Below are positions 11,673-19,831 of a DNA stretch of 32,878 bases, in pieces; position 1 is the first letter of the stretch, and each line of letters opens with the position of its first letter. Source of the stretch: an uncultured SAR86 cluster bacterium. Lineage in GTDB: Bacteria > Pseudomonadota > Gammaproteobacteria > Magnimaribacterales > Magnimaribacteraceae. The notes under the pieces were generated by a model, which saw only the letters and a program-made list of their open reading frames with translations, made no database searches and was not told the origin of the DNA. The translations under genes were made by a program, and so were the position numbers. The stretch spans positions 1 to 32,878 of the forward strand of contig CALIUO010000025.1 of NCBI GenBank assembly GCA_938048695.1, written 5' to 3'.

Positions 11673-12119
11673 TTAATTTACCTCGAATACTTCAAATTTT
11701 AGAGTACCAGCAAAAAGGTCAACTTTGCCTTGAGCGTGATTAATGACCCCATTATTGAGAGTATCAAAAGAATACATCGTTACTATTGTGCCCTCTCTAC
11801 TCCATGAGCCTTGAAGAGAAGCATATTGCAACTCGCCATCTTGATTGATAGTTCTTGCTTGTCCTGTAAATTCTCCAGACATTCCATCATCAGTGCTTAC
11901 GGTGAAATTATGTGTTAAGTAGACTTTACCATAGCCTTCTCCCACCACTCCTTCTGAAGTAATTGTGCTCTTACCGTCACCTGCAGTCCAAGAGGTCATT
12001 TTAAAGTTAGCTGGGAAACTCTCCCCGCTAACATCGAAAGTGAATGCGTTTTGCGACATCACAACAAAAAGTGAAGCCAGAGCTCCAATTGCAATCTTAT
12101 TTTTTATAATTTTTAACAT
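11673..12119 (-). CDS. Small exported protein, paralogue of the 12914 gene
   Basis: The 148-residue product begins with a signal peptide (about 1-27, ending near QNAFT), so the mature protein should be periplasmic or outer-surface. It is Gly/Ser/Thr-rich with short alternating segments, suggesting a beta-sheet fold. The central and C-terminal portion (GYGKVYLTHN, GSWSREGTIV, NNGVINH) matches segment by segment the protein encoded at 12914-13336, so the two are paralogues. No known family is recognised. It is preceded by AAAGGAT and is on the opposite strand to its relative. It has no cysteine in the mature part. Confidence 0.75.
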   Translation of the reverse strand: MLKIIKNKIAIGALASLFVVMSQNAFTFDVSGESFPANFKMTSWTAGDGKSTITSEGVVGEGYGKVYLTHNFTVSTDDGMSGEFTGQARTINQDGELQYASLQGSWSREGTIVTMYSFDTLNNGVINHAQGKVDLFAGTLKFEVFEVN

Positions 12120-12241: not shown

Positions 12242-12850
12242 TTATTTCGGCTCTGCGCTTGGCTGATAGTCGTAGTAACCATCTGTAGGTATCATCAAGT
12301 GAACATAAGGAGAACCTTTGAACATTACATAAGGCGCCCCTGTATCAAAATCAGTTGTTTGAGTATCTAAACTTTTAGGATCTTTGGGGAGCAACATTAA
12401 ATGAGGGCCAGATTCAATGAAGTGAATAGGATTTGATCCCTCTCTATCACCTTCAGAATATGCCCTAAAATTATCAACTCCAGTATCACCATGTAACATC
12501 CACAGCCATCCGTCACTTTCCATTTCAGGAATAGTATTGTTCATATAAGCATCAACCCAGGCAAGAGAAGCCGCATCTCCACACGCAGGATTTGCATCAT
12601 GAGGTGTATTAAAACCCCCTGCAGGCATAGGATTAAAGGCAACGCAAACCCAGCCATTTGTTCCTTCTCGAAGCACCTCTCCATTTGCTCCCTTAACAGT
12701 AGCAAAATCTCCAATAAAGTCTGGTGCAGCAGTGGAGTAAGCCCAAATCTGCCATTCAGCTGTATTGTGTGCAACCTTCGGTTCATCTGCAAAAGTAAAA
12801 TTAACAGCTAAGAAACTGACAACACTAATTGCTATATATTTTTTTAACAT
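12242..12850 (-). CDS. Exported protein of unknown function
   Basis: The start is set at the ATG at 12850 because GGAGAAGAA precedes it and a signal peptide follows directly (MLKKYIAISVVSFLAVNFTFA). The longer frame to 12895 adds 15 charged residues ahead of the signal and has no ribosome-binding site. The product has about 202 residues and is rich in Trp, Gly, Pro and acidic residues. It has a Cys pair (GWVCVAF and NPACGD) that could form a disulphide, and motifs EWQIWAYSTAAP, GWLWMLHGD and SGPHLMLLP. I do not assign a family. It is divergent from the 12914 gene across 63 bases and followed by a strong terminator. Confidence 0.7.
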   Translation of the reverse strand: MLKKYIAISVVSFLAVNFTFADEPKVAHNTAEWQIWAYSTAAPDFIGDFATVKGANGEVLREGTNGWVCVAFNPMPAGGFNTPHDANPACGDAASLAWVDAYMNNTIPEMESDGWLWMLHGDTGVDNFRAYSEGDREGSNPIHFIESGPHLMLLPKDPKSLDTQTTDFDTGAPYVMFKGSPYVHLMIPTDGYYDYQPSAEPK

Positions 12851-12913
12851 TTCTTCTCCAATGATTATTTTGTTAAGGTCAGTATATCTTTTCATTTAAA
12901 AAAGGAGAATATT
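12851..12913. promoter_or_regulatory. Divergent promoter region between two exported-protein genes
   Basis: This 63-base AT-rich gap must hold both 5' signals. AAGGAGA lies before ATG 12914 on the plus strand, and GGAGAAGAA before ATG 12850 on the minus strand. AGTATATCTT in the middle could supply -10 elements, but no clear -35 can be picked. No palindrome stands out. Confidence 0.35.
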
Positions 12914-13336
12914 ATGAAATTTATTAAATATGGCCTAGCGCTAATGCTGTCAGGAATTTTTTCTTTATCAGTATTGGCTCATGATCCAAAAGGTGAATCA
13001 TTTTCATTATCCGGCAAAATAACGTCTGTTGAACTTACCGACGACGGAGGAACTATAACCGTTTCTTCGGAGGCTGGAAGATATGGAAAAGTTTTCTTAA
13101 CTTACAATGTGAAATTAAATCCAGCCTTACCAGATCAAGGTTACTTTTCAGGAAGAGGAGTCGGATTTAATGACGGAGTAAGGCAAGCAGGATCTAGACA
13201 GGGCGTTTTTAGAAGGGAAGGGGCCATAATGAAATTTTGGTCTTTAGATGACGTGACTGATGGCAATATGAACTATTGTGAGACCGTCATGAATTTAGAA
13301 ACAGAAACTGTAGAGATGACCTTTTATCCTTTTTAA
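12914..13336 (+). CDS. Small exported protein, paralogue of the 11673 gene
   Basis: The 140-residue product has a signal peptide (about 1-22, ending near VLAHD). The mature region contains RYGKVFLTYN, GVFRREGAIM and TDGNMNY, aligned in order with GYGKVYLTHN, GSWSREGTIV and NNGVINH of the minus-strand protein at 11673-12119. The composition suggests a small beta-rich domain. One Cys (MNYCETV) is unpaired within the protein. Family and function are unknown. AAGGAGA gives a strong ribosome-binding site, and a strong terminator follows 15 bases after the stop, so this is a single-gene transcript. Confidence 0.75.
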   Translation: MKFIKYGLALMLSGIFSLSVLAHDPKGESFSLSGKITSVELTDDGGTITVSSEAGRYGKVFLTYNVKLNPALPDQGYFSGRGVGFNDGVRQAGSRQGVFRREGAIMKFWSLDDVTDGNMNYCETVMNLETETVEMTFYPF

Positions 13337-13344
13337 TTTTTTTT

Positions 13345-13374
13345 AAAAAAGCCCTCCTAACGGAGGGTTTTTTT
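13345..13374 (+). terminator. Strong intrinsic terminator after the 12914 gene
   Basis: CCCTCC (13352-13357), a TAAC loop and GGAGGG (13362-13367) are followed by seven T. The A-run at 13345-13350 extends the stem and makes it potentially bidirectional. It ends only 15 bases before the start of the next plus-strand gene at 13390, leaving little room for a downstream promoter. Confidence 0.88.
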
Positions 13375-13389
13375 ATATAAGGTAAATTT

Positions 13390-13989
13390 ATGGGTGCAAA
13401 TGATTTATTAGAGATCGGAACTCTCTTGAAAATAATTCTATGGATTGAAGTTGTTGTATATCTAGGTATTGGAATATTCGAAATACTAGATTCTTTCTCA
13501 GATGAGAAGCCTTGGAATTTAAGAAATGGGAAGGTGAACAGCTACTTAGCAATGCGTGAGGTTGTAAGTTATAAGATGCACGCTGCCGTATGTTTTTTGC
13601 TTGGATTTATTGCATTGAATGGTCTTATAGAAGGATCAATAACTCGATTTGAGTTGGAGCTCATATTTTTGAGCCTTGCTTTAATAATGATGCTTTTATG
13701 GATGGTCGCTCTTCCAGGCAGGCTTGGTTTTATAGTGATTTTTCTTACTAAGCCAGAAACAAGCTTGCAAATAGTCATGTTTATTTTCTTTGCTGATTTA
13801 ATAAGACCATGGGTATTGTATTTATGTATTTTCTTGAACTTATGGGGATTGGTTGTTTACTTCATCCAAACGAGAAAAAAATCAATTTACCCCTATGATT
13901 ATTCAACCGTTAGACAAGATGCCTTAGATGCAGGACTGGAAGTCTCAAAGGTTGAGGCTATGGACAAGGCCGCTGGCTATCCTAAGTGA
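13390..13989 (+). CDS. Membrane protein of unknown function, coupled to PMT gene
   Basis: The 199-residue protein has several hydrophobic segments (about 13-33, 60-80, 90-110 and 122-163) and a soluble C-terminal tail of about 35 residues. That tail includes YPYDYSTVRQDALDAGLEV and an amphipathic end. An Arg/Lys-bearing stretch (RNGKVNSYLAMREVVSYK) lies between the first two segments. I recognise no family. Its TGA overlaps the GTG of the PMT gene by 4 bases (GTGA), so the two are translationally coupled. A role near protein mannosylation or lipid-linked sugar handling is possible from context only. TAAGGT precedes the ATG. Confidence 0.7.
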   Translation: MGANDLLEIGTLLKIILWIEVVVYLGIGIFEILDSFSDEKPWNLRNGKVNSYLAMREVVSYKMHAAVCFLLGFIALNGLIEGSITRFELELIFLSLALIMMLLWMVALPGRLGFIVIFLTKPETSLQIVMFIFFADLIRPWVLYLCIFLNLWGLVVYFIQTRKKSIYPYDYSTVRQDALDAGLEVSKVEAMDKAAGYPK

Positions 13990-15335
13990 CCAAATTGATT
14001 GATATCAAGACCCATTGGCAAATTTTAGTAATTCTCTTAGTAGGGTCTATTTTAAGGTTTTTAAACTTAGGACTTATTCCTGGACCTATTTTTGATGAAG
14101 TCTTTTATCCTGTTTTTGCTCTTAATTACTTAAGTGGAGAGACCTTTTTCTCGGTACATCCTCCACTTGGGTCTTATATCCTCACGTTAGGAATATATCT
14201 ATATGACATTTTACCTTGGACAGAGAATATCAACTTTTTCCTTGCCGAGGTTCAAGATATAGACCCTCTTTCTTACAGATGGACAGGGGCTGTTTCTGGG
14301 ACTGCATTAATTTATGTAGGCTACAAACTGGCCTTGGAGTTATTCGAGCATAAGCGTTTTGCCTTATTAGTGGCTTTCTTTTTTATGTTAGATGGATCTT
14401 TATTAGTAGATTCGCGCTTGGGTTTGATTAATGTTTTCTTCTCGCTTTTCGGATTTATGGCCGTGTTATTTTTCTTAAAAGGAAATAAGAGTAAAAATAT
14501 AGGCCATTTTCTGATTTCAGGTTTGATGCTGGGAGCGGCATTTTCTGTCAAATGGAATGGATTAGGATTTTGGTTAACTCTTTTAAGCTTTTCGTTCTTA
14601 TTTCTCGTTTTCTATAAATTGGATTTGAACTTTAGATCTGAATACGAAAGACGCAGTTCAATGAAATCTTTATGTCTCTTCATATTTCCATTTTTTATTT
14701 ATTTAATTTTTTGGATACCTGAACTTATTCATAATGAAAATTCACTTATTGATAAACATGCTCAGATGATTGGTTATCATTTTGATGCTTCAGATTCAAA
14801 AGCACATCCCTACAGCTCTCCTTGGTATACATGGCCTTTAATGATAAGACCTATAGGATATTTCTTTGATGCCCAAACAGTAACCGGGCCTGGTGGGGAT
14901 GTTGAAATTTTTACATCAATACATCTATTTCCTAATCCCGCACTGAGCTTGTTTGCATTTATTGCCGTAATAATCCTGACTTTTAAATGGATAGAGTCTT
15001 TGGCTAAATCAATTGGTGCAAAAAAAGTAAGCGAAGATGCATATGTAATAAGCCTTATATTGATTGGTTTCTATGCTAACTTTTTGCCTTGGGCGGTAGC
15101 CTCTAGATCAACGTTTATTTACCACTATCAACCTTCGGCATGCTTCTCTTTCATGGCTTTAGCCTTTCTTCTTTATAAGCTTACCACTAAAAAGAAATCT
15201 GAAAATATGGCCGTATATTATATGACTTTAATTCTTATTTTAATTTCAGCTGTATACTGGCTACCCTTACAACTAGGCCTTGAGATAACCAGTGATGGCT
15301 TCTATTCAAGGATGTGGTTCGATACGTGGATATAG
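13986..15335 (+). CDS. PMT-family (GT39-like) polyprenyl-phosphate-mannose:protein mannosyltransferase
   Basis: This 449-residue integral membrane glycosyltransferase has about 11 hydrophobic segments. The first outer loop carries the catalytic acidic pair in FDEVFYP (Asp37-Glu38) and HPPLG (58-62), followed by SYRWTG with Arg98; all are typical of protein O-mannosyltransferases. Later HPYSSPWYTWPLM (274-286) and LPWAVASRSTFIYHYQP (367-383) match the C-terminal four-TM PMT block. The enzyme should transfer a hexose, mannose in known members, from a polyprenyl phosphate to Ser/Thr of exported proteins. GTG 13986 overlaps the preceding stop. The next gene encodes the donor synthase, which supports the role. 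PMTs are well known in actinobacteria and uncommon in Gram-negatives. Confidence 0.85.
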   Translation: MTKLIDIKTHWQILVILLVGSILRFLNLGLIPGPIFDEVFYPVFALNYLSGETFFSVHPPLGSYILTLGIYLYDILPWTENINFFLAEVQDIDPLSYRWTGAVSGTALIYVGYKLALELFEHKRFALLVAFFFMLDGSLLVDSRLGLINVFFSLFGFMAVLFFLKGNKSKNIGHFLISGLMLGAAFSVKWNGLGFWLTLLSFSFLFLVFYKLDLNFRSEYERRSSMKSLCLFIFPFFIYLIFWIPELIHNENSLIDKHAQMIGYHFDASDSKAHPYSSPWYTWPLMIRPIGYFFDAQTVTGPGGDVEIFTSIHLFPNPALSLFAFIAVIILTFKWIESLAKSIGAKKVSEDAYVISLILIGFYANFLPWAVASRSTFIYHYQPSACFSFMALAFLLYKLTTKKKSENMAVYYMTLILILISAVYWLPLQLGLEITSDGFYSRMWFDTWI

Positions 15336-16453
15336 ACTCGCTTAATAATAATTTAAAAATCTGTTTTGTACTCCCTACATATAATGAAGAGGAGAACATA
15401 GAAAATATAATTAAACAGATTTTAGAAGAGGAAAGGGTTCAAAGCACAGATACATTTTCTATATTAGTAGTTGATGATAATTCTTCTGATGAAACACAAG
15501 ATATTGTAAAAGGCCTAATTTCTCTAAATCAGAAGATTCATTTAATCACCGGCCCAAAGAAGGGTTTGGGGGATGCCTACAAGCGAGGTTTTGAATTTGC
15601 TATAGATGAACTTAACGCCGACTTAATTTTTCAAATGGATTCTGACGGGCAACACGATGCTTCTTTAATTCCTAATTTCATAAATTATATAAAAGAGGGT
15701 AAAGATGTAATCATAGGTTCACGATTTATAGAAGGAGGAACCACACCAGATTTTTCGTTCTCCAGATTATTCATGAGCAAAGTGGGAAATTTACTGGTTA
15801 GATATGTTGGAGGTATAACTCAAGTTAAAGACTGTACGTCTGGTTACCGAGCAATTCGTACTTCTTATCTAAAAGAGCTAGATTTCAGCTATCTGTCCAC
15901 AAGAGGTTACAGTTTTCAATCTTCGTTACTAAGTGATTTGGCATGGAGGGGCGCAGATATATTTGAAATACCAATTGAATTTTCTTCTAGAAAAGGAGGA
16001 GACTCTAAGTTGGCGCTAAGAGATCAGATTGAATTTCTTTTGAACATTCCTAGATTAGGATTCCGAAACACGAAAGATTTCATTAAATATTCTTTAGTAG
16101 GGATGTCTGGTGTATTTGTGAACCTTGGACTCTACACATTACTTACAAGATATTATGAAGTATCTGAACTACTGGCGCCGTTAATCTCTATTGAATCAGC
16201 ACTGATTTCTAATTTTATACTTAATAATTTCTGGACTTTTGGCAAAAGAACAACTCAAAGCAGAATTAGAGTTAAATTCCTTAAGTTTCATTTAGCCAGT
16301 GGATTTTCTGCCCTAATAAACTATGCGGTATTTTTAACTCTCTTTTTAGTTTTTCAACTCTATGATATTTTGGCCAACTTGCTTGGCATAGCGCTGGCCG
16401 CAATAGTTAATTATCTCATCAACTCTAACTGGACATGGAAGGACAATAAATGA
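15314..16453 (+). CDS. Polyprenyl-phosphate hexose synthase (GT2, DPM1-like) fused to GtrA
   Basis: The 379-residue protein begins at GTG 15314 or GTG 15326, both overlapping the end of the PMT gene. The GT2 domain (about 15-240) has PTYNEEENI, VVDDNSSDET and the DxD in MDSDGQHD (109-111), then GSRF, CTSGYRA and GYSFQ, matching dolichyl-phosphate mannosyltransferases. From about 257 a GtrA domain with four hydrophobic segments follows (KYSLVGMSGVFVNLGLY, SNFILNNFWTF). It should build a polyprenyl-phosphate sugar from a nucleotide sugar and help place it across the membrane. Next to PMT it is the obvious donor supplier. It ends in an ATGA overlap with the lipoprotein gene. Confidence 0.87.
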   Translation: MVRYVDIDSLNNNLKICFVLPTYNEEENIENIIKQILEEERVQSTDTFSILVVDDNSSDETQDIVKGLISLNQKIHLITGPKKGLGDAYKRGFEFAIDELNADLIFQMDSDGQHDASLIPNFINYIKEGKDVIIGSRFIEGGTTPDFSFSRLFMSKVGNLLVRYVGGITQVKDCTSGYRAIRTSYLKELDFSYLSTRGYSFQSSLLSDLAWRGADIFEIPIEFSSRKGGDSKLALRDQIEFLLNIPRLGFRNTKDFIKYSLVGMSGVFVNLGLYTLLTRYYEVSELLAPLISIESALISNFILNNFWTFGKRTTQSRIRVKFLKFHLASGFSALINYAVFLTLFLVFQLYDILANLLGIALAAIVNYLINSNWTWKDNK

Positions 16454-17181
16454 ATTTAAATAGAATCAGTTTGGTTTTCTCGTTTGGTTTGCTGATGTCT
16501 TGCAGCGAGTTGAAAGAAGCATCGTTAAATAATTTTGCTATTGAAGATGATGTTTTTGAATCAGGAAAATCTTTAGTTGCTCTCACATACGGTCTGCATA
16601 ATCTAGAAGAGGCCAATCTAGATCAGACAACTCTTTTGATAGGAGTCCATGGTAGTAATAGCAGGGGCTATGAATGGGTATATCCTTTACAGAAACTGAA
16701 CCAAGATAAGAATCTGGTTTCATTTTACCGCTGGAACGATGATGCTTGTCCTGACTCATCTATGACTTCTTTGCATAGTTTGATAAAAACTAAGCTCGAA
16801 GATAGTCAAAATATTAATAAAGTTATCATAGTAGGCCATAGCTATGGTGGTCTTTTAGTGGCCTCTTTTACGGATAAATGGGATATTGATATCTCCTTAG
16901 AGGTTCATTCTGTGGCAGCGCCTTTAAAAGGAATGGGAATGCTTGATAGAGCTTGTAATTATCAAGTCCCCACTTCTATTGGCTCTGATATTAAATTTTA
17001 TCAATGGAGAACAATTAAAGAGCTAGATGGCGCGTTTAAAGACTTGGACTATGATCCACAAGTACTAGAAATTGAAAATAGTATCGTCATAAGGTTACCC
17101 GAAACTTACAAAGGAAATAAATTGGGTCATAATTGGTCTATCAGTTGGGTAGCCGATGAAATCAAACAAAATCTTCAATAA
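16450..17181 (+). CDS. Lipoprotein alpha/beta hydrolase
   Basis: The 243-residue product has a lipoprotein signal: a hydrophobic stretch ending LLMSC with Cys18. The absence of Asp at +2 (Ser follows) suggests outer-membrane sorting. The hydrolase body shows LLIGVHGSNSRGYEW (oxyanion region), VGHSYGG with nucleophile Ser131, and a late LGHNWS as the likely His. The acid is probably in the region around DLDYDP. It could be a lipase, esterase or peptidoglycan/glycan-related esterase; the substrate is not apparent. ATG 16450 overlaps the stop of the GT2-GtrA gene, so it belongs to the glycosylation operon and may act on or near its products. Confidence 0.78.
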   Translation: MNLNRISLVFSFGLLMSCSELKEASLNNFAIEDDVFESGKSLVALTYGLHNLEEANLDQTTLLIGVHGSNSRGYEWVYPLQKLNQDKNLVSFYRWNDDACPDSSMTSLHSLIKTKLEDSQNINKVIIVGHSYGGLLVASFTDKWDIDISLEVHSVAAPLKGMGMLDRACNYQVPTSIGSDIKFYQWRTIKELDGAFKDLDYDPQVLEIENSIVIRLPETYKGNKLGHNWSISWVADEIKQNLQ

Positions 17182-17200: not shown

Positions 17201-18427
17201 ATGAGAACTATTGAAAATTTTTTTCAGGATAGAGACATTAACTATGGTTGGGTCATGGTTCTTGTAGTTTTTGTATTAAGCGGACTTGCTTTTGGATCAA
17301 TGGCATCAATCTCAGTGTTTCTTAAGCCTGTATCTCTTGAGTTCGGCTGGTCCAGAGGTCAAACTTCTTTTGCCTACAGCATAGCGTCCTTCGCTTCAGC
17401 TGCTTTTGGAGTAATTTGGGGTCAGGTTGCAGATAAATATGGCACTAGGTGGTTTGGCTTTGCTGGTGCCATCTGTATGAGTTTAGTTCTGTTTGCTTTA
17501 AGCAGCCTAGACTCAATATTTCAGTTTTACCTCTTATATTTTTTATTTGGGGCAATGGGAAGTGCGCTTTTATTTTCCCCGCTTTATGCCAATGTAGGCT
17601 TTTGGTTTAGGGAGAACCCCGGGCTTGCATTAGGTCTCGCAGCATCTGGGGGAGCCATAGGACAGGCATTTATCCCGCATTTGAGTGGTATTTTAATTGA
17701 AACCTCAGGATGGAAAGCTGCCTATATTGATCTGGCTATAATTTATATTTTAATTGCGCTCCCCATTTCTTTCTTGATTAAGGAGTCGCCTTGGAGAATA
17801 AGTGCAAGGACTGATTCTGAGCAGGAGGAGACGGATTTTCCCCTTTCGGAGAAAGAAGTAGTTGCGTGGATTAGTTTTGCTGTAATTTTCTGTTGTGTAT
17901 GTATGTCTATTCCGATCATGCATTTGGTGCCCCTCCTTACTGATAAAGGATTTTCAGTGGAGTTTGCTACTTCCGTATTGATGTTGCTAATGTTTTGCGG
18001 TGCTTTCGGCCGAATCCTCGGTGGAATGCTTGGAGACTATATCGGTGCTTTACCGGGTTATATTTTAATGTCGTTAGGACAAACAGTTTTTGTTATATGG
18101 TTCCCTCATCTTATCTCTCCTTCTACTATTTATATAATGGCGGCACTATTTGGTTTCACTTACTCAGGAGTTATGTCGAGCATCTTGGTATGCACCAGGA
18201 TGATGGTCTCAGCAAAGTACGGAGCAAGAGCAATGAGCCTGACCTCATTTTTTGGTTGGATAGGTATGGGCCTCGGAGGATTTTTAGGGGGTTATTTCTT
18301 TGATATTTATGGTGACTATAGCTGGGCATTTACATTTGCAGGAATAATGGGAGTTATTAACTTACTCATACTTTCCCAGTTTTGGTTAAGAATTAGAAAG
18401 GTTAATAAAGATCCTCTGAATACTTAA
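17201..18427 (+). CDS. Major facilitator superfamily transporter (monocarboxylate/oxalate-formate type)
   Basis: This 408-residue polytopic inner-membrane protein has about 12 hydrophobic segments. The N-terminal INYGWVMVLVVFVLSGLAFG and FGWSRGQTSFAYSIASF resemble the OFA/MCT group, and GQVADKYGTRWF is the MFS motif A between helices 2 and 3. The central cytoplasmic loop contains EQEETDFPLSEKEV. The likely role is import or export of a carboxylate-type small molecule. It starts 19 bases after the lipoprotein hydrolase stop and may be the last gene of that operon, though its functional link to glycosylation is unclear. Confidence 0.82.
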   Translation: MRTIENFFQDRDINYGWVMVLVVFVLSGLAFGSMASISVFLKPVSLEFGWSRGQTSFAYSIASFASAAFGVIWGQVADKYGTRWFGFAGAICMSLVLFALSSLDSIFQFYLLYFLFGAMGSALLFSPLYANVGFWFRENPGLALGLAASGGAIGQAFIPHLSGILIETSGWKAAYIDLAIIYILIALPISFLIKESPWRISARTDSEQEETDFPLSEKEVVAWISFAVIFCCVCMSIPIMHLVPLLTDKGFSVEFATSVLMLLMFCGAFGRILGGMLGDYIGALPGYILMSLGQTVFVIWFPHLISPSTIYIMAALFGFTYSGVMSSILVCTRMMVSAKYGARAMSLTSFFGWIGMGLGGFLGGYFFDIYGDYSWAFTFAGIMGVINLLILSQFWLRIRKVNKDPLNT

Positions 18428-18504: not shown

Positions 18505-18532
18505 GTTGGCAAATTTCATCTTGGAGGCCAAC
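18505..18532 (+). promoter_or_regulatory. Leader hairpin around the rhlE ribosome-binding site
   Basis: GTTGGC (18505-18510) can pair with GCCAAC (18527-18532), enclosing most of GGAGG (18523-18527). A small alternative hairpin TTGG-AGG-CCAA also covers that site. GGAGG is 17 bases from ATG 18545, longer than normal, so the structure may tune translation. A TATACT about 100 bases upstream of the ATG is the best -10 candidate. Confidence 0.35.
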
Positions 18533-18544
18533 AAAAAAAATAAT

Positions 18545-19831
18545 ATGTCATTTAACAAACTAGGCCTTTCTCCTGCACTTCTTAAAGCTATTCAAGATAA
18601 GGGATATACCAAACCCTCTCAAATCCAAAAAGAGGCAATACCCGAAATTTTAAAAGGAAATGATATTTTGGCAGGAGCCCAAACAGGAACAGGTAAGACA
18701 GCTGCCTTTGCCTTGCCACTTTTACACATATTACAAAATGCAGAATCAAAAAGACGACGGGTTAGAGTTTTAGTGCTCGTTCCAACAAGAGAACTCGCCT
18801 CCCAAGTTGGAGAAAGTTTTAGAGAGTACGGCATTAATTTAAGGTTTAAGACATCTACCCTTTATGGCGGTGTGAGTATCAACACCCAGATAAATAAAAT
18901 TAAAAAAGGAGTAGACATAGTTGTTGCTACGCCTGGAAGGCTGCTTGACCATCTCAATCAAAAAACTTTGAATCTTTCTGAGCTAGAAACCTTTGTTTTA
19001 GATGAAGCGGACAGAATGTTGGATATGGGATTTATACGTGATATCAAGAAGATATTGAAATATTTACCGGAAGAAAAACAAAATCTTCTTTTTTCAGCAA
19101 CATTCCCCAATGAAATAAAGTCTCTAGCAGATAATCTTTTGAATTCTCCAAAGAGAGTCCAGGTAAAATCTAATAATTCAACAGCGGATAAAGTGGAACA
19201 GGTTGTTTACCCTATTGATAAATCTAGAAAAAAGGAACTATTAGCCTATTGCATCAAGGAAGAAAATTGGTTTCAGGTATTAGTATTTTCTAGAACAAAA
19301 CACGGAGCTAATAAATTGGCTCAACAATTAAATAAAGAAGGTATAAACGCTGATGCATTTCATGGAAATAAATCTCAGACACAAAGAACAAGGGCTCTCA
19401 GCGATTTTAAGGATTTAAAAACACAGGTTTTAGTAGCAACTGATATTGCTGCACGCGGCATAGATATAAGTCTTTTACCCCATGTAGTAAATTTTGATCT
19501 ACCTTATGTACCAGAAGATTATATCCATCGTATTGGAAGAACGGCACGAGCAGGCCAAGAAGGAAAGGCAGTTTCTTTAGTGAGTGCAGATGAACATAAG
19601 TTATTATTTGATATTGAGAAGCTCCTTAAGTCATCTATACCTAAAGAGATTATTGTAGGTTTTGAGCCAGCCCAGAATCTCAGTACAGATGCATTAAAGC
19701 CTAGAGAGGCGGCAAGAAAGAAGAATAAGAGCTCGAGGGCATCAAAAAAACAAACTTCGCCTAGAAGAAAGTCATCATGGAATAAGAGAGGTAATAAAAA
19801 CAAATCTTCAAAAAATAATCGAAGATCCTAA
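18545..19831 (+). CDS. rhlE: DEAD-box ATP-dependent RNA helicase RhlE
   Basis: The start is placed at ATG 18545 (MSFNKLGLS), the family-typical N-terminus. The longer frame from TTG 18506 adds 13 residues without precedent. The 428-residue protein has every DEAD-box motif: Q motif (SQIQKEAIP), AQTGTGKT, PTRELA, TPGRLLDHL, DEADRMLD, SAT, VFSRTK, ATDIAARGIDI and HRIGRTARAG. The C-terminal roughly 60 residues are Lys/Arg/Ser-rich and disordered, typical of RhlE RNA-binding tails. It unwinds short RNA duplexes in ribosome assembly and RNA decay, often at low temperature. The leader contains an SD-sequestering hairpin candidate. rlmN follows after 51 bases. Confidence 0.92.
   Translation: MSFNKLGLSPALLKAIQDKGYTKPSQIQKEAIPEILKGNDILAGAQTGTGKTAAFALPLLHILQNAESKRRRVRVLVLVPTRELASQVGESFREYGINLRFKTSTLYGGVSINTQINKIKKGVDIVVATPGRLLDHLNQKTLNLSELETFVLDEADRMLDMGFIRDIKKILKYLPEEKQNLLFSATFPNEIKSLADNLLNSPKRVQVKSNNSTADKVEQVVYPIDKSRKKELLAYCIKEENWFQVLVFSRTKHGANKLAQQLNKEGINADAFHGNKSQTQRTRALSDFKDLKTQVLVATDIAARGIDISLLPHVVNFDLPYVPEDYIHRIGRTARAGQEGKAVSLVSADEHKLLFDIEKLLKSSIPKEIIVGFEPAQNLSTDALKPREAARKKNKSSRASKKQTSPRRKSSWNKRGNKNKSSKNNRRS

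Follow-up and report, generated by a model that had tools for sequence, protein, structure and literature searches.

Two overlapping genes at 13986–16453 of a SAR86 genome fragment probably constitute a two-gene periplasmic protein O-glycosylation system, as judged from their sequences and from structural models. The fragment (contig CALIUO010000025.1, assembly GCA_938048695.1, positions 1 to 32,878, all 32,878 nucleotides of which are referred to here as the window) belongs to the 1.33 Mb draft genome, 85% complete, of an uncultured SAR86 marine gammaproteobacterium. The first gene (13986–15335, forward strand, GTG start) encodes a predicted protein O-mannosyltransferase (PMT) of 449 amino acids, without a MIR domain, and the second (15326–16453, forward strand) a putative polyprenyl-phosphate-mannose synthase (DPMS), in which a GT2 domain is fused to a GtrA/DPMS transmembrane domain. 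The original prediction had regarded both as members of a self-contained four-gene operon. Comparison of genomes shows that the glycosylation unit consists of the two overlapping genes, without either neighbour.

Assignment of the 13986 product to the PMT family GT39, as first proposed, is borne out by Pfam domains, motifs and fold, all of which are of PMT type. Two Pfam domains exceed their curated cut-offs, PF02366 (PMT; 83.9 bits, cut-off 22.7, 1.7e-23) and PF16192 (PMT_4TMC; 107.2 bits, cut-off 32.4, 1e-30), and the score against the NCBI protein O-mannosyltransferase model is only 48 bits, its cut-off being 800. The sole sequence relatives in the PDB are Pmt1, Pmt2 and Pmt4, with no ArnT among them. 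In alignments, the catalytic D37-E38 corresponds to D77-E78 of Pmt1 and D74 of the Mycobacterium tuberculosis enzyme (MtPMT), R98 to Pmt1 R138, and R374-x2-F377 to R441-x2-Y444 of MtPMT and R649-F652 of Pmt1; an HPP motif is present at H58. The AlphaFold model (pLDDT 81, pTM 0.86) places a beta-hairpin, residues 292–314 (EL4), at the position of the WW-like element of MtPMT. A fold search with this model returned PMTs in all of the top five rows (Z 29.2–32.6, 403–413 residues aligned, rmsd 3.3–3.6), the top matches being Pmt4 and Pmt2 chains of yeast and Chaetomium and the highest score that of Pmt4 (Z 32.6), with OST (Z ca. 25) and ArnT (Z 23.4–23.9) ranking below. Comparison with known PMT folds had been suggested as a check at the outset, and PMTs prove to be the closest (Z 29–33); an ArnT-like transferase, named beforehand as the refuting case, is rejected on its lower fold score of Z 24 and the lack of a sequence match. 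By sequence, motifs and fold, 13986–15335 is thus predicted to encode a genuine GT39 protein O-mannosyltransferase. The gene also evolves under purifying selection and is therefore maintained, its dN/dS being ca. 0.1 between the window and its relative AG-447-A08 and 0.11–0.27 in closer pairs (range 0.07–0.27). In two further gammaproteobacteria (G312 and G526), the PMT closes a long open frame of ca. 1250 amino acids with an N-terminal extension (L051:1354–3396, reverse strand).

The second gene was originally read, from 15314 or 15326, as a polyprenyl-phosphate-sugar synthase with a GtrA domain, with which both its Pfam content and a full-length structural relative agree. It contains PF00535 (Glycos_transf_2; 3e-27) and PF04138 (GtrA_DPMS_TM; 2e-25), the latter spanning residues 258–375 of the 379-amino-acid reading, and it aligns end to end with the Pyrococcus furiosus synthase PfDPMS (5mlz; E 1.8e-50). 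Taken by itself, the GT2 domain reaches 97 bits with PfDPMS, against ca. 40 with the UDP-sugar enzymes GtrB and ArnC. GtrA domains are often labelled flippases. Such a role is unproven here, because PfDPMS, a synthase, possesses the same domain. Metal and phosphate residues are conserved; D105-D107-Q109-H110 retain the D-x-D-x-QH motif, and R222 and K228 (all in the numbering of the DPMS alignment) the Arg/Lys of the acceptor loop (PMC5526996). The predicted product of 15326–16453 is, by sequence, a GT2-GtrA polyprenyl-phosphate-mannose synthase of the PfDPMS type.

The best evidence that transferase and synthase work together is their repeated adjacency. Wherever a SAR86, SAR92 or Porticoccaceae locus extends far enough (L002–L018, with L017 ending inside DPMS), the two adjoin, and the linkage, as the original prediction expected, holds in these relatives and recurs in other Pseudomonadota, where eight loci of the phylum sample carry a GT2-GtrA protein beside the PMT on the opposite strand (two of the eight checked by Pfam). 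A distant PMT of one gammaproteobacterium faces two separate genes, for a GT2 protein and a GtrA-like protein (L050:25–429, 450–1412, 1423–2781), the three functions of synthase, GtrA-like protein and PMT being spread over three genes. In the window, PMT and DPMS overlap by 22 bases if DPMS starts at 15314 (GTG, 379 amino acids) and by 10 bases if it starts at 15326, as had been read; the latter start is preferred, since in the closest relative, AG-447-A08, a stop at codon 3 interrupts the longer reading. The overlap is seen again in relatives and is therefore no chance feature of a single genome. By protein (best tblastn segment), the closest matches are SAR86 cluster genomes (AG-447-A08, 79%), followed by SAR92 and Porticoccaceae (44–49%) and by Simiduia and cyanobacteria (ca. 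31–34%, with one partial hit at 40%). Within the SAR86 order, 15 of the 203 genomes have PMT, each of them a member of one family; it exceeded the cut-off in 4 of 369 genomes of the sampled class and 22 of 398 of the sampled phylum.

Homology suggests that, on the cytoplasmic side of the membrane, the GT2 domain would charge undecaprenyl phosphate with a hexose, which is most likely mannose donated by GDP-mannose. The lipid-linked sugar would then cross the membrane in a step that is unproven, perhaps helped by the fused GtrA domain, perhaps via another protein. From its fold and motifs, PMT would act on the periplasmic side, where, using D37 as base, it would pass the sugar to Ser/Thr residues of proteins as they leave the translocon. 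In this subfamily the classical place of the second carboxylate is taken by N149, and D142 may provide the carboxylate instead. The enzyme resembles the actinobacterial GT39 proteins (Rv1002c/MtPMT and Corynebacterium glutamicum Cg1014) in its MIR-less PMT and PMT_4TMC arrangement, DE motif, R-x2-[YF] and EL4 beta-hairpin, but differs in having Asn for D176 with an acid added at 142, in the overlap of its gene with that of a putative donor synthase, and in its 48 bits to the NCBI model. With yeast Pmt1/Pmt2 and Chaetomium Pmt4 it shares a fold that covers almost all of the model (Z 29–33), as well as the equivalents of D77/E78, R138 and R649/F652; unlike these, it lacks a MIR domain, is assigned to a bacterial inner membrane, is encoded by a single gene and has N149 for D189. 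DPMS matches PfDPMS over the full length of its GT2 and GtrA-like transmembrane domains, in D-x-D-x-QH and in the acceptor-loop R/K, but it is bacterial, its gene overlaps that of the PMT, and the sugar-site F177-K178 reads Y195-S196.

The active site and the supply of sugar both weigh against this reading. In MtPMT the second carboxylate is D176, equivalent to Pmt1 D189, of which the D176A variant is almost and the D176N variant completely inactive, and a gap-free alignment to Pmt1 shows that the window PMT has N149 in this column. The residue whose change to Asn abolishes MtPMT activity is therefore Asn throughout the clade of the window, and the activity or mechanism of this clade may differ accordingly. 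All 23 of the SAR86, SAR92, Porticoccaceae, Simiduia and cyanobacterial PMTs combine N149 with an acid seven positions before it, at 142, this being D in the gammaproteobacteria and E in the cyanobacteria. The remaining 28 rows, from other Pseudomonadota and three actinobacteria (27 different sequences, L050 having been entered twice), carry D or E at 149 without exception, and only one of them has an acid at 142. As the 23 sequences possibly descend from one change, they are counted as one or two events rather than 23. A hypothesis suggested by the alignment is that D142 takes over the role of the second carboxylate, which is a mechanistic feature of MtPMT and no defining criterion of GT39. 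Such an exchange of Asp for Asn with a new acid nearby offers a probe of the true role of the second carboxylate of PMTs.

With respect to the sugar, neither a GDP-mannose pyrophosphorylase nor a match to the GDP-mannose model was found in the draft genome of the window, and about 10 of the 15 PMT-positive SAR86 genomes, mostly drafts of 50–88% completeness, likewise yielded no GDP-mannose pyrophosphorylase. Mannose, as originally named, is a first guess, based on likeness of the synthase, and the identity of the sugar is uncertain, GDP-mannose synthesis not having been found in this draft genome. The same machinery could instead carry one of the sugars always produced by SAR86, such as GlcNAc, so that PMT would perform O-HexNAc modification or O-glucosylation, a version we regard as rather unlikely though the strongest of the competitors. 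In its favour, the PF00483 enzymes of the window genome are limited to one of GlmU size and a MurU-like one whose gene adjoins that of an AmgK-like kinase, and a ManC-like gene (called from the length of the open frame and its overlap with matches to the GDP-mannose model) does not track PMT, occurring in about 5 of 15 PMT-positive and 7 of 20 PMT-negative genomes of the family, with none found in two PMT-positive Porticoccaceae genomes. Against it stand the GT2 domain, which resembles a GDP-mannose enzyme (97 bits) far more than it does GtrB or ArnC (ca. 40), and the full ManC of G177, the sole near-complete PMT-positive genome; sugar-nucleotide genes could also sit in poorly assembled islands of the incomplete genomes. 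Absence of ManC is not accepted as proof against mannose, because the drafts are incomplete to the point that even the GlmU-sized hit is missing in several. The AmgK-MurU-like pair of the window genome, associated with cell-wall sugar recycling, lies at L048:1183–2861, and a nucleotidyltransferase of MurU-like size is present in nearly all family genomes surveyed.

A target other than protein, namely a surface polysaccharide or lipid modified by a GT-C enzyme of the GtrABC O-antigen or ArnT kind, is improbable. The three-step logic is indeed that of the GtrB-GtrA-Gtr O-antigen systems (PMC11127046), and the fast gain and loss of the genes recalls serotype switching. However, the transferase carries both PMT-specific Pfam domains and the PMT motifs, including the EL4 beta-hairpin, its PDB sequence matches are solely PMTs, and its fold is nearer to theirs (Z 29–33) than to that of ArnT (24). 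The protein O-glycosylation system proposed here shares with the three-component systems (GtrA-GtrB-Gtr and CsbB-GtcA-YfhO) a lipid-phosphate-sugar synthase, a GtrA-family protein and a GT-C transferase, but its GT-C is the protein-type GT39, with synthase and GtrA fused into one protein. The predicted architecture is that of a three-component system (synthase, GtrA, GT-C) cut to two genes with a protein-type GT-C.

That all four genes from 13390 to 17181 make up a single glycosylation module, on whose product the hydrolase would act, is scarcely credible, since the stop/start overlaps that connect them in the window are set against a hydrolase that persists without PMT-DPMS in eight genomes and a membrane protein that is lacking in most PMT-positive loci. 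The hydrolase gene (16450–17181, forward strand; 243 amino acids, lipobox LMSC) encodes an esterase/lipase-like alpha/beta-hydrolase lipoprotein, the model of which matches lipases and esterases, with S131 and H227 invariant. It is a resident gene outside the pair, present at the same site in the PMT-negative SAR86 genomes G166, G168, G171, G172, G173, G175, G157 and G158, and was not found in the SAR92 or Porticoccaceae loci or in that of G153; its tree does not sort by PMT presence, which takes 5 changes against mostly 5–7 in shuffles. The membrane protein (13390–13989, forward strand; 199 amino acids) has no Pfam or NCBIfam match and belongs to no known family. It is an optional neighbour of the pair and occurs without PMT in G172, which keeps the hydrolase as well. 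The four-gene order, when sought in related genomes as the original prediction advised, was reduced to the conserved PMT-DPMS pair; the four genes do not travel together, and the operon is not self-contained as four. Portability, which had also been claimed, applies to the pair, exchanged at a fixed site, and not to the four genes.

Between PMT-negative G171 and PMT-positive G176, DNA identity is 97.5% as far as the left flank gene reaches, stops where that gene ends, and resumes at 94% within the hydrolase gene; only between these points do the two states differ. Genome G159 is a mosaic: its flanks resemble those of its own genus, and its PMT, its hydrolase and its left flank gene those of the genus of the window; placement of its PMT in the clade of its own genus is rejected (p 5e-71). 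On the tree of three flank genes, PMT presence requires 8 changes, shuffled labels mostly giving 7–8, and is thus scattered as by chance. These observations indicate that the pair is gained and lost at one site through recombination between conserved flanking genes. Gain and loss at a single site in turn suggests that the pair alters the cell surface under diversifying selection. In G153 the pair is located past the major facilitator superfamily (MFS) gene instead; transfer of PMT-DPMS between this SAR86 genome and Porticoccaceae is favoured in one tree (98/98), but is left open, as the test does not reject one common clade of SAR86 (p 0.24). Phage or plasmid cargo was considered and dismissed, there being no relative in viral contigs, no DNA match in phage records and, among plasmids, only distant actinobacterial PMTs. 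A tentative wider proposal, which we hold to be somewhat doubtful, is that marine gammaproteobacteria and cyanobacteria carry a PMT subfamily with the carboxylate moved from N149 to D/E142, and that in SAR86 this PMT and its own synthase form a cassette swapped at one site like O-antigen or serotype genes, probably altering what phages or grazers see. Further optional genes at the exchange site are an M20-like peptidase and rhlE. The peptidase (487 amino acids, recognised by eye) lies between hydrolase and MFS genes in some SAR86 genomes (L057:3102–4565; L063:2726–4189) and is absent from the window; the rhlE-like helicase gene (18506–19831), which the window has between the MFS gene and an rlmN-like gene, is lacking at this place in L002, L007, L015, L059 and others.

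GT39 genes are annotated in more than 3,800 bacterial species (PMC11727336), so that finding one annotated in a Gram-negative is nothing new. Bacterial protein O-mannosylation, in the sense of what has been experimentally described, appears restricted to Actinomycetota according to a 2025 paper (PMC12331936), and a search with partial literature coverage found nothing on SAR86 and O-mannosylation or on GT39 and Proteobacteria. The pair offers a compact candidate for such a system in a marine group that is both abundant and uncultured, with related pairs in other Pseudomonadota. As it comprises only two genes it is easily moved to a laboratory host, making donor, flipping and acceptor directly testable, and if active it would be a candidate minimal tool to O-mannosylate secreted proteins in Gram-negative hosts.

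The four open reading frames between 13390 and 17181 and their junctions (GTGA at 13986, ATGA at 16450) are as originally read. The MFS transporter gene (17201–18427, forward strand), the right flank of the exchange site in both PMT-positive and PMT-negative genomes, starts 19 bases past the hydrolase gene, so that 17181 marks no natural end of the same-strand run. The run apparently starts right after an inverted repeat, CCCTCC-TAAC-GGAGGG followed by T7 (13352–13374), which follows the left flank gene of the exchange site (12914–13336, forward strand), encoding a secreted protein, at the end of which the DNA identity breaks. The repeat, likely a terminator separating the run from this gene, was found by direct reading, the terminator scan having listed the reverse strand only; promoter and terminator scans gave counts no higher than shuffles, terminators lying near the shuffle mean. 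Upstream, a secreted protein (12242–12895) occurs as two allele classes (ca. 80% and ca. 60% identity) independent of genus, a further sign of recombination, and is flanked by small secreted paralogues (11673–12119 and 12914–13336; ca. 31–38% identity) on opposite strands.

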